Source: Clostridia bacterium
GTDB taxonomy: Bacteria > Bacillota > Clostridia > Oscillospirales > Acutalibacteraceae
DNA: 44,486 nt
Direction: 5' to 3'
Assembly: GCA_017474125.1 (NCBI GenBank)
Contig: JAFVIF010000043.1
Coordinates: 1 to 44,486, forward strand
Positions 10,794 through 44,486 of this stretch are shown here, in pieces. The first letter of the stretch is position 1. Every line of letters starts with the position of its first letter. The position numbers and the translations under genes were made by a program. Below the pieces are notes generated by a model. It was not told the DNA's origin, made no database searches, and saw only the letters and a program-made list of their open reading frames with translations.

Positions 10794-11921
10794 TTAGTTT
10801 ACCTTGATTCTCGGTACGCGTTTAGATACGCCGCATACTATTTCGTAATTTATGGTGCCGCAGAGCTCGGCAATTTCATCAACAGGCAAATCCTTGCCGA
10901 AAAGAGTAACCTCGTCACCGATTTCCACCTTTTCAATATGGGTTACGTCAACTATCATTTGGTCCATACAAACTCTGCCCACAATATTTGCACGCTGTCC
11001 GTTTATAATTACCTGACCCTTATTGGAAAGCAGTCGCGGATAACCGTCGGCGTAGCCTACCGAAACGGTGGCAAGCTTCATTTTGTTTAATGCTTTAAAG
11101 GTTCTCCCATAGCTTATACCGGTATCCTTTTCCACCCATTTAACCATAGAAACCACACTTTTAAGGGTCATAACGGGAATAAGCTCTTGACTGTATTTCA
11201 TATTTTTATCGGGAGAAAGGCCGTAAAGAATAACACCCGGTCGGCAAAGAGAAGAATGCTTATCGGCTTCAAGAAGCAGACCCGCAGAATTACAGCAATG
11301 AACGGTTTTTACAGAGGGGCATTTTTCCTGTATTTTTTCTGCCGCTTTAATAAAACGGCTGTATTGCTCCTTAGTATAGTCACCGTTTATATCACCGCTT
11401 CGGTCAGCGGCGGCAAAGTGGGTGAAAACACCTTCAAAGCTTAAATTTTCAAGGCTTAAAACACTTAAAGCGTCATCCATTCCGCAAAGGCTGTCGTTTC
11501 GGCAATCAAAGCCTATACGACCCATACCCGTATCCAGCTTAATGTGTGCCTTTACGGTTACGTTTGCTTTTTTTGCGTAAAGGGAAAGCTTTTCACCAAA
11601 TTCCTTGTCGTAAACCGTTTGGGTAATGTCGTTTTCAGAAAGCCTTTTGGCCGCTTCGGGAGGAGTGTAACCGAGAATGAGAATAGGGGACGAAACACCC
11701 ATATTTCTAAGCTCCATAGCCTCGTCAATATTGGAAACGGCAAAGGAATCGGCCCCTGCGCTCATAAGGGCGGGCAGAACTATTTCGGTATCGTGTCCGT
11801 AGGCGTCGGCCTTAACCACCGCCATAAGACGGCAGTTTTGAGCGCTGTTTTTAATTGTTTTGAAATTATGTACCAAAGCCGAAACACTGATTTCAGCCCA
11901 GGTACGGTGTAAGAAAGCCAT
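10794..11921 (-). CDS. alr: alanine racemase
   Basis: A PLP enzyme making D-alanine for peptidoglycan. The product is 375 residues from the ATG at 11921, chosen because AGCGAGG lies 7 bases upstream; an in-frame ATG at 11939 lacks a binding site. The PLP lysine is in MAVVKADAYGHD (residue ~36) and the opposing catalytic tyrosine in GISYGRTF. The substrate blocks IKLDTGMGRIGF, VGRVCMDQMIVDV and CGVSKRVPR are present. A strong promoter lies directly upstream, so the gene has its own start besides readthrough. Confidence 0.96.
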   Translation of the reverse strand: MAFLHRTWAEISVSALVHNFKTIKNSAQNCRLMAVVKADAYGHDTEIVLPALMSAGADSFAVSNIDEAMELRNMGVSSPILILGYTPPEAAKRLSENDITQTVYDKEFGEKLSLYAKKANVTVKAHIKLDTGMGRIGFDCRNDSLCGMDDALSVLSLENLSFEGVFTHFAAADRSGDINGDYTKEQYSRFIKAAEKIQEKCPSVKTVHCCNSAGLLLEADKHSSLCRPGVILYGLSPDKNMKYSQELIPVMTLKSVVSMVKWVEKDTGISYGRTFKALNKMKLATVSVGYADGYPRLLSNKGQVIINGQRANIVGRVCMDQMIVDVTHIEKVEIGDEVTLFGKDLPVDEIAELCGTINYEIVCGVSKRVPRIKVN

Positions 11922-43275: not shown

Positions 43276-43420
43276 AAAAGAAAGTCATAACCTCCGGCTA
43301 AGCCGGAGGTTATGACTAAACTTTTTGCGAAGCAAAGCACCTTTTTGTCAGGCATTTGTATACTGCGAATTCTTTGAATTCGCAGTCGAAATAAGGCTTT
43401 GCCATGTTTCGACATCAACA
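43273..43420 (-). ncRNA. candidate minus-strand small RNA
   Basis: TATAAT on the minus strand at 43431-43426 would start an RNA near 43419. It contains an 11-bp hairpin ACTGCGAATTC/GAATTCGCAGT (43362-43386), TCGAAA/TTTCGA arms (43386-43412), and ends at a 16-bp hairpin (43317-43283) followed on this strand by TTTCTTTTTT, a proper terminator. The -35 is poor. Its start and the segment GCCTGACAAAA resemble the ychF leader. No known RNA class recognised. Confidence 0.3.
43283..43317. terminator. strong terminator hairpin
   Basis: AGTCATAACCTCCGGC / GCCGGAGGTTATGACT with loop TAA, 16 perfect pairs. It follows the WYL gene stop by 7 bases; the U-run is good on the minus strand and only fair (AAACTTTTT) on the plus strand. 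Confidence 0.8.
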
Positions 43421-43441
43421 TAGTCATTATAGCATATTTAA

Positions 43442-43612
43442 TGAAATATTGCTACGCAATATGAAATAATCCTTTGGATTATGAAATATTTTGCCTTAGC
43501 GGCAAAATGTGAAATAAAATAAATCCCTTATACGCCGCAGCGTATTTCATAGCGTCAGCTATTTCATAACGCGAAGCGTTATTTCACAAATCCCGCAAGG
43601 GATTTATTTCAT
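43442..43612. repeat. converging array of variable hairpins with TGAAAT spacers
   Basis: Four TGAAAT copies in plus orientation (43442, 43462, 43482, 43510) and four ATTTCA copies (43544, 43561, 43581, 43606) in the other. Between neighbours sit hairpins with unrelated arms: ATATTGC/GCAATAT, ATAATCC/GGATTAT, ATTTTGCC/GGCAAAAT, ATACGC/GCGTAT, ATAGC/GCTAT, ATAACGC/GCGTTAT, AAATCCC/GGGATTT. A 13-bp stem AAATAAATCCCTT/AAGGGATTTATTT (43517-43529 with 43597-43609) closes over the second half. Spacing is 17-28 bases. No reading frame fits. Confidence 0.85.
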
Positions 43613-43614
43613 TG

Positions 43615-43655
43615 AAAAGAACCCACACTTGTCGTAGACAAATGTGGGTTCTTTT
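43615..43655. terminator. long terminator-like hairpin
   Basis: Arms of 19 bases (43615-43633 and 43637-43655) pair with one mismatch around loop GTA; A-run before and T-run after allow use in both directions. It borders the hairpin array. The following 43656-43758 is AT-rich; a plus-strand TTGACA at 43728 has only a weak -10 and no plus gene after it. Confidence 0.75.
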
Positions 43656-43758
43656 CTGGAAAGGGTGTATAAATTCGAAGTCTTTTGATTTTTTGGCCTA
43701 TGTGTTCGAACCTCTACATATTTTAATTTGACAAAATTGTGTTGAAATCTGTATGTAA

Positions 43759-44187
43759 TCATAAAACATAACTTACAAAAGAACCCGCGATAGTATCATC
43801 GGGCATTTTTACAGGACTAATTGAAAATTTGTTTTTTAGCCATAGCCGATGTGACGGTATATTACGAATATCACAATAAGCACGCACTTGATACACATTT
43901 TCATTTTTTGCAATTTTTATAATTTCCTTTAGCATCGCCGTAGCTATCCCTTTACACCGCAAATTTGAATGTGTAACTTCAATCATATTTATGAAGATTT
44001 CATTTTGTTCAATCGGTGCAGGTATATCTCTTTTAAACGCCCACAAACAACCAACAATGGTATCATCATTTTTAGCAACAAGGAAATATCCATCTTTACG
44101 AATTACGTCTCGCATATAAGGATAATCTTTTAACATTTGTTCTTTTTCAAGCTCAGTTCCAATTCTTATAATAAAATTTTCATCCAT
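43759..44187 (-). CDS. GNAT family N-acetyltransferase
   Basis: 142 residues. The acetyl-CoA site is HSNLRCKGIATAMLKEII (R/Q-x-x-G-x-A/G pattern, residues ~93-110), preceded by the beta-strand INMIEV and followed by VYQVRAYCDIRNIPSHRLWLKNKF, typical of the fold. Substrate unknown. It overlaps the upstream four-helix-bundle gene by 8 bases (ATGGATGA). The codon choice is more AT-rich than in the genes left of 43275, suggesting accessory or acquired DNA. Confidence 0.88.
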   Translation of the reverse strand: MDENFIIRIGTELEKEQMLKDYPYMRDVIRKDGYFLVAKNDDTIVGCLWAFKRDIPAPIEQNEIFINMIEVTHSNLRCKGIATAMLKEIIKIAKNENVYQVRAYCDIRNIPSHRLWLKNKFSISPVKMPDDTIAGSFVSYVL

Positions 44188-44486
44188 TTAAGGTTTTATT
44201 CTCCTTTGCAGTTTTTATTGATGCAATCAGTAAAATTCTAATTGTAGAGCAAGTTTTGTTAATTCTTTTATATGTAGCTTCGTCAATATAGTCTGTTTTA
44301 TAAAGCATTTCAAGCCACTTACCCGTTTCGCTTGCTTCCTTTAAGGCAATTTCAAGTTTTGCAATAAAATCGGCACGACTGTGACCATATTTGCTTTCGG
44401 CAATGTTGGCACAAACGCTTGTAGCGCTTCTGCCAATCTGATTTGAAATGATAGTTTCTTTTCTATGACGCAGTTCTTTTACTAAA
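44180..44486 (-). CDS. four-helix-bundle protein (23S rRNA IVS type), 5' end outside window
   Basis: The last 101 residues are visible; the gene enters from beyond the window end. The family pattern is clear: ISNQIGRSATSVCANIAES, HSRADFIAKLEIALKEASET, WLEMLYK, and NKTCSTIRILLIASIKTAKE. These are small pentameric helical proteins first found in 23S rRNA intervening sequences and now known mostly as stand-alone genes; their role is unknown. Together with the GNAT gene it forms a small accessory pair. Confidence 0.85.
   Translation of the reverse strand, partial: LVKELRHRKETIISNQIGRSATSVCANIAESKYGHSRADFIAKLEIALKEASETGKWLEMLYKTDYIDEATYKRINKTCSTIRILLIASIKTAKENKTLNG

Follow-up and report, generated by a model that had tools for sequence, protein, structure and literature searches.

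The Gut-1 motif (RF01706), which corresponds to half of the array described below and is filed by Rfam as a small RNA gene, was reported in 2010 from environmental sequence of the human gut only; the cited part of that report marks it as certainly an RNA and groups it with likely non-coding RNAs (PMC2864571). Neither a converging second half nor a position at tRNA genes, other spacer words or S23 proteins are mentioned for Gut-1 in this part of the report. According to the cited section of a paper on Coxiella, S23/IVP proteins have no known function; the rRNA insert that bears S23 is called a selfish genetic element there, and S23 is a homopentameric ring (PMC4990558). For the DGR target, the relevant excerpt of a PLoS Genetics article from 2011 describes a DNA hairpin or cruciform in which the shape of the stem is needed, the sequence of the stem is free, and the loop of four nucleotides is constrained (GRNA in the sense direction; PMC3240598). 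Finally, the term "23S rRNA IVP" occurs in one figure legend of a Science paper from 2023 on rare CRISPR systems, after a heading on CRISPR adaptation modules in the excerpt used.

The window is the whole analysed stretch of 44,486 nucleotides from a Clostridia bacterium of the Acutalibacteraceae. It contains an array of eight hexamers, four TGAAAT followed by four converging ATTTCA, with a hairpin in each gap. This arrangement had been noticed from the sequence alone (the original prediction) and was confirmed at positions 43442-43611. Equally present is the long-range stem of 13 bp that had been described, which connects 43517-43529 with 43597-43609 (by eye) and shares an arm with the last hairpin. 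Because the 3' arm of this P hairpin (43588-43605) serves both pairings, the long-range stem and the P hairpin are mutually exclusive.

Homology to the most complete relative, a locus of another genus (L090), extends from about 43426 to about 43618, and the element is thus slightly larger than the stretch first reported. A copy on contig C48 of the same genome begins at the same base as this homology (about 43426) and ends at the end of its contig. The full element was assigned to the minus strand because the P-hairpin end, which faces the tRNA elsewhere, lies at the right. From this end, the terminator-like hairpin comes first and is followed by the P hairpin and two further hairpins; next are the central hairpin, arm C' and another three hairpins. 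The coordinates are listed in Table 1.

Table 1. Features of the array and its right-hand neighbourhood in the window.
Feature	Position	Strand	Basis or remark
TGAAAT spacers	43442, 43462, 43482, 43510	+	sequence pattern
ATTTCA spacers	43544, 43561, 43581, 43606		sequence pattern
Full array element, two converging halves	43426..43618	-	homology limits versus L090 (another genus)
Forward half: four TGAAAT and three hairpins	43442..43515	+	Gut-1 match 43419-43492 (+)
Central segment: long-range arm C (AAATAAATCCCTT, 43517-43529), then central hairpin	43516..43543	+	
Reverse half: four ATTTCA, two hairpins and terminal P hairpin	43544..43611	-	Gut-1 match 43539-43614 (-)
P hairpin AAATCCC-GCAA-GGGATTT	43588..43605	-	3' arm (+ strand) alternatively pairs with C
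Terminator-like hairpin at P end	43614..43656	.	by eye; BLAST pieces L001 93%, L012 96%
Module of about 65 bp with two TTCGAA motifs	43657..43726	-	BLAST L071 (G001; 89%, 66 bp), L104 (G064; 81%, 78 bp)
GNAT acetyltransferase gene	43759..44187	-	PF00583, 8.1e-13
S23 / 23S rRNA-intervening-sequence four-helix-bundle gene	44180..44485	-	PF05635 2.4e-22, TIGR02436, PDB 2rld

Elsewhere in the same genome, tRNA-Ser(cga) and tRNA-Arg(acg) are each followed by a hairpin similar to the terminator-like hairpin of the window. No tRNA was found in the window; its usual place is occupied by the 65-bp module, which also lies at array edges in relatives, including G002 (L295; by eye). The TTCGAA module bears a slight resemblance to tRNA 3' ends. 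The S23 gene is separated from the array by the GNAT gene and is interrupted by the contig end.

Dinucleotide shuffles of the window array contained at most three of the eight hexamers (2000 shuffles) and at most two hairpins, compared to seven observed (300 shuffles). The z-score of the fold is -6.0 for DNA (plus strand) and -6.4 for RNA (minus strand), and in both cases 0 of 200 shuffles were equally stable. Scanned against Rfam at gathering scores, the window gave two Gut-1 matches only, with 66.1 bits at 43539-43614 (-) and 50.8 bits at 43419-43492 (+); both exceed the Gut-1 gathering threshold of 50 bits. The original prediction had left the element without a name. Since each half scores as Gut-1, half of the array was in fact already known. 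In the parts of the literature searched, no description of the converging whole, of the spacer classes or of the S23 match was found, and the searches returned no title or abstract on a link between S23 and such arrays.

Two identifications were dropped. The scan contained no rRNA match at gathering scores, which disposes of a 23S rRNA IVS in the window. A CRISPR array was rejected because the repeat comprises 6 bp, the orientation switches in mid-array, and the gaps are hairpins.

The genome of the window, a draft of 2.0 Mb in 79 contigs that is 86% complete, with arrays at or near the ends of several contigs, contains 35 Gut-1 matches. A pattern of TGAAAT triplets matched 30 times in this genome, compared to 0 for the reversed control. 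At least one match was present in 59 of 120 genomes of the family, although some resemble chance matches in coding sequence. Hence, the alternation of hexamers and hairpins is found at other loci, and the first of the two refuting conditions set by the original prediction does not apply. The spacer TGAAAT, which had been called invariant, is so inside the window array, but sister arrays of the same genome use other words; by eye, AATGATG, AACGATG, ATATCATC and others were recognized besides TGAAAT.

In order to assess covariation, 13 homologous arrays with 47 hairpin pairs were compared with 500 shuffles, which are lenient given the relatedness of the rows. Pairing was observed in 95.3% of the cells, and both sides had changed in 17 of the 47 pairs. 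None of the 500 shuffles was as high on four of five measures, and two were on the fifth; for the number of pairs changed on both sides, the outcome was 0 of 500. The P:C' stem was paired in 97.2%, with changes on both sides in four of nine pairs (as many in 3 of 500 shuffles) and a covariation score reached by 0 of 500 shuffles. Therefore, structure is kept and sequence is not; aligned copies do show compensating changes, and the second refuting condition does not apply either. Furthermore, C' complements its own P region by at least seven bases in 73 of 90 oriented arrays, compared to a mean of 26.7 (maximum 37) after permutation; these are the orientable ones among 99 distinct TGAAAT arrays, nine of which were dropped. 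A perfect stem of at least 4 bp occupies 365 of the 506 gaps in the 99 arrays (shuffles 30, maximum 46), and 124 distinct arms occur among these perfect-stem gaps. The notion that each pair of arms differs from all others is correct within the window array; across copies, however, homologous hairpin positions share ancestry.

The loops of hairpins with a stem of at least 4 bp and a loop of 3-5 nucleotides are polar. In the TGAAAT reading, 136 of 187 triloops are TNC and none is GNA, 87 of 120 tetraloops are TNNC and none is GNNA, and a C-G pair closes 308 of 327 loops. Counted over the distinct hairpins of a larger set, the polarity is 153:1 for TGAAAT and 58:1, 9:0, 8:0 and 4:0 for four other spacer words. 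The directional unit thus consists of a spacer word and a hairpin, usually C-G closed, with a polar loop. On the opposite strand (ATTTCA) the loops read C(GNA)G and C(GNNA)G, which are unusually stable DNA mini-hairpins. The GNNA tetraloops accept any third base (GNRA 52 versus GNYA 34 in a manual count of 86 of the 87). Because polarity follows the spacer, it reverses between the halves of one array, which is easier to reconcile with a directional unit of DNA than with one single RNA. On the tRNA-sense strand, stem mismatches comprise nine G.T and three A.C in 12 of the 13 rows (L221 omitted).

The arrays have a characteristic genomic position. In the genome of the window, 27 tRNAs have enough sequence around them and 21 are the last of their cluster; within the next 330 bp, 14 of these 21 are followed by at least four hairpins (terminator included), compared to 0 of 20 upstream. 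A tRNA or tmRNA 3' end lies within 400 bp of 52 of the 82 arrays that are away from a locus edge (random positions of these loci: 12%). When all 99 arrays are counted, 57 have such an end nearby, 47 of them at 27-90 bp. In a set found by the pattern only (80 loci of at least 117 matching stretches), 18 of 39 arrays have such a neighbour among the matches listed. With five of the 57 not orientable, the tRNA or tmRNA is on the P side in all 52 others, and in loci read by eye a terminator-like hairpin stands between tRNA and array. In the congeners G001 and G002, tRNA-Ser(gga) directly follows the orthologous WYL gene; next comes a TGATAT array in G001, and G002 continues with another kind of repeat stretch, followed by the 65-bp module and one half of a TGAAAT array.

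Several further observations were made at such loci. Three tandem arrays about 290 bp apart with a conserved linker lie behind tRNA-Leu(taa) in L084 (G065:C43, about 10817-11474). Several AATCGTT repeats separate the array from the promoter of the next gene in L061, L093 and L296. Related genes (GSWSGMRKYLEQEM...) occur beyond different arrays and tRNAs (Ser, Ala) of different organisms in L001 (1731-2243) and L249, and a common sequence, AAAAGGGGGTGCATTTGTAT...AAAATTAGGGTTAGTCTTC, follows unrelated genes beyond the array in L001 and in L296/L071. In L081 (about 1614-1823) and L088 (about 1600-1816), a second tmRNA or tRNA-Leu 3' end precedes the full gene by about 180-200 bp; the inserts between the 3'-end copies have a similar plan (by eye) and resemble another small element at the 3' ends of RNA genes.

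These data bear on the possibility that the array is a putative structured RNA, produced by read-through from the tRNA or from the opposite side and serving as non-coding RNA or 3' trailer in termination, end protection or processing. The Gut-1 scores of both halves, the stable fold with its covariation and the fixed orientation to the tRNA (52 of 52) would all be accounted for; the slight G.T excess (9 versus 3) is a weak hint in the same direction, and the alternative pairing partners of P (P' or C') recall an attenuator. However, a terminator-like hairpin (by eye) lies between tRNA and array, the loop polarity would flip between the halves of one transcript, and the tetraloops follow GNNA, in which the third base is free, and not GNRA. 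Moreover, the spacer word tracks the S23 clade, as detailed below. We regard a structured RNA as unlikely.

Several copies of the window array with differing flanks suggest spread. The C48 copy is 98.8% identical over 169 bp and is cut by the contig end, a truncated copy on contig C71 is 94.6% identical over 130 bp, and the copy in another genus (L090) is 90.8% identical over 195 bp; the flanks differ in each case. In this draft genome, neither a target duplication nor a clean empty site was found. A search of 50,697 phage records with the array gave one match (MT835590.1, 73.6% identity over 78% of the query), and a plasmid search gave none. Nine viral contigs match the array pattern, on the basis of the pattern match alone. 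A gene for a retron-type reverse transcriptase (L006, 280-1338; G000:C71), whose best PADLOC match is RT_Ec107-like (4e-112), directly adjoins a truncated copy of the window array behind tRNA-Ala.

At least three of the genes selected immediately past tRNA-side arrays code for S23 proteins (PF05635, TIGR02436). Within the 120 genomes of the family, Gut-1 occurs in 53 and S23 in 54; both are present in 42, Gut-1 only in 11, S23 only in 12, and neither in 55 (Fisher test, about 1e-11). The 127 S23 matches in these 54 genomes were sampled by 90 loci, 30 chosen by a tool and 60 taken nearly in list order (G000:C18 and G075:C7:11626 out of order), and the window was added. By means of phmmer with two queries, the S23 ORF was located in 82 of the 91 loci; L304-L309 and L334-L336 were missed initially. 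Of 74 S23 genes, 37 have at least four hairpins in the preceding 450 bp; downstream, the count is 4 of 75, and upstream of other ORFs in the same loci it is 20 of 165. Of the nine initially missed loci, eight have 450 bp of upstream sequence and one has at least four hairpins there; with these loci added, the numbers are 38 of 82 upstream and 4 of 84 downstream. A clear public example is JAFXHA010000071.1 (L199), with tRNA-Thr(cgt), terminator-like hairpin, array and S23 in this order. In the pattern-found named loci, among the matches listed, S23 lies no more than 600 bp away from 9 of the 45 arrays. The matched S23 structures 2rld and 2gsc contain five chains each in the PDB.

A tree of S23 was calculated from 78 rows and 118-119 columns; it leaves out the nine late loci, its forks are only partly resolved, 6 of 84 ORFs, being shorter than 80 residues, were excluded at first, and the fragment of the window was added later. 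The S23-linked arrays carry eleven spacer motif labels from a list that we defined ourselves. Mapped on the tree with 43 labelled rows in 11 classes (the 35 of 78 rows labelled "none" or "other" were unused), the spacer class requires 14 changes, compared to a minimum of 24 and a mean of 28 when the labels were shuffled 200 times. For the presence of an array 11 changes are needed, compared to at least 19 in shuffles. At least two TGAAAT triplets were found in 15 of 15 genomes with an S23 of the TGAAAT clade, in 19 of 37 genomes with other S23, and in 5 of 68 without S23. These counts are supportive but not clean. The clade was defined by an identity of at least 64% to one query (next matches 57-60%) and includes partial matches (G032, 75%; G083, 90%), and G079 and G097, which have a PF05635 match, were counted as S23-free. 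The comparison pattern TGAAGY carries no information, since its reversal yields almost the same word and it also matches repeats in coding sequence.

The link has limits. Across the phylum (29 loci), 0 of the 27 ORFs found had at least four hairpins upstream. Within the family, no array was seen in 28 of the 78 tree rows; 23 of these belong to one weakly supported group of 28 rows, and outside this group an array is present in 45 of 50. The S23 of the window groups with S23 proteins of ACGATG-spacer arrays, outside the TGAAAT clade. Therefore, the TGAAAT array of the window is a solo copy that has no cognate neighbour; the upstream array of its S23, if any, would be located beyond the contig. 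This S23 is 97% identical over 98 columns to the S23 of another genus (L368, G119), which suggests a recent transfer between genera.

Our preferred reading, to which we assign a probability of roughly one half, is that the array is the cis part recognized by a cognate S23 protein, and that array and S23 gene together form a small selfish element. In its favour are the covariation and perfect stems of the arms, the loop polarity, the location of arrays behind tRNAs with the P side facing them, the copies with differing flanks, the co-occurrence with S23 and the agreement of spacer class and S23 clade. Against it speak the S23 genes that lack arrays in the phylum and in part of the family, G090 with many arrays and no S23 match, the TGAAAT triplets in 19 of 37 genomes with other S23 clades only, the equal frequency of S23 behind tRNAs with and without arrays, the lack of a cognate neighbour in the window, the weak G.T excess, and the negative outcome for target duplications and clean empty sites. 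Among the ideas of the original prediction, whose observation was confirmed and whose interpretation is partly supported, a protein-binding array is the best one, with S23 as a concrete candidate binder.

Alternatively, the array might be an ordinary intergenic repeat of the REP or MITE kind at a harmless hot spot behind terminators, where S23 gathers too but has no functional tie to it. S23 genes are indeed equally common behind tRNAs without arrays (12 of 24) and with arrays (24 of 43; p 0.8), so that their co-location is partly due to a shared hot spot. Beyond arrays there are also other accessory genes, GNAT and, by eye, immunity-like ones, and G090, a genome that is 99% complete, contains 18 TGAAAT triplets and no S23 match. 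The agreement of spacer and clade, for its part, may be plain co-inheritance. On the other hand, a mere hot spot accounts poorly for a spacer class that follows S23 phylogeny (14 changes versus at least 24), for the preference of arrays for the upstream side of S23 (38 of 82 versus 4 of 84), and for the co-occurrence of Gut-1 and S23 across genomes (p about 1e-11). This explanation is rather improbable.

Far less credible is a gene-cassette recombination site, in which arrays would fold and serve for recombination, comparable to integron attC, at the borders of accessory genes (S23, GNAT and immunity-like ones). It would fit the order array, gene, terminator-like hairpin, array on G001 C54, the order array, genes, array in L090, and the finding of related genes past distinct arrays and tRNAs (L001, L249), but the genes seem to carry promoters of their own (by eye). 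That the hairpins are REPs moved by the single Y1 transposase of the genome can practically be discarded, because the one Y1_Tnp match belongs to a gene that has GTAG-type palindromes (GTAGGGACGGGCGTCCCC...) around and within it, none of them related to TGAAAT, and because REPs conserve sequence and the array arms do not. A RAYT/REP origin was accordingly dropped, no conserved GTAG-tagged palindrome of the arrays being linked to the Y1 gene. The locus of this single Y1/RAYT-like match (L079, G000:C61:13368-16736) carries its palindromes (GTAGGGACGGGCGTCCCC..., GTAGGGGACGATGCCC...) on both sides of and inside the gene.

In the preferred reading, the stretch in the window is one copy of a dispersed family in gut Clostridia, built as a convergent array of directional units; a tRNA, tmRNA or other gene with its terminator-like hairpin often lies just before such an array. 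Spacer classes go with S23/IVP clades, the S23 gene in many cases lying directly beyond the array. We infer that S23 binds the array, that DNA is the folded form and that the unit moves: the array would fold, probably as a DNA cruciform, and an oligomer of the cognate S23 would recognize spacer and hairpins. Array and S23 gene would settle as a selfish element at the 3' flanks of stable-RNA genes, and arrays lacking an S23 gene would be non-autonomous and depend on S23 supplied in trans. The nearest well-studied parallel to such recognition is the DGR target. As the spacer word changes with the S23 clade, the role of S23 is directly testable.

More tentatively, these elements may represent a new selfish class that pairs S23 with spacer-matched DNA hairpins having C(GNA)G or C(GNNA)G loops, spreads to the 3' flanks of genes for tRNA, tmRNA and other stable RNAs, perhaps by DGR-like reverse transcription with the polymerase supplied in trans, and has the 23S inserts as distant cousins. 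In this context, the DGR protein Avd is presumably a four-helix-bundle relative of S23. If true, such a class would assign a function to the S23 family. Gut-1, an unexplained RNA motif, would become one half of a larger element, and the rows of hairpins behind many tRNA genes of these bacteria would be explained in part. The arrays would also offer a natural set of hairpins with kept structure and free sequence for studying how perfect hairpins are maintained.

Compared to other members of the proposed S23-linked element, the window array displays the convergent spacer-hairpin halves, the loop polarity and the double pairing of P and C, whereas an array directly upstream of an S23 of the cognate clade is absent from the window locus. 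With REP/BIME elements the array has in common short intergenic hairpins, multiple copies and alternating orientation; REPs, however, are characterized by a conserved arm sequence, GTAG/CGTC tags and RAYT transposases. The conserved G..A loop and the variable stem are reminiscent of the DGR target, which is a resemblance in one feature; in the cited excerpt, that target is a single hairpin and depends on a template repeat as well as on a dedicated reverse transcriptase, whereas the array contains many hairpins with GNA/GNNA loops and does not require GRNA (PMC3240598). The 23S rRNA IVS shares with the array the protein family (PF05635) and the nature of a hairpin-forming element at a stable-RNA gene; according to the cited section, the IVS resides inside 23S rRNA, whereas the array has multiple hairpins and lies outside, downstream of tRNA, tmRNA or other genes (PMC4990558). 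Gut-1 (RF01706), as far as the cited part of its description goes, has the same UGAAAU spacers and hairpins, and its model covers one half of the array only (PMC2864571).
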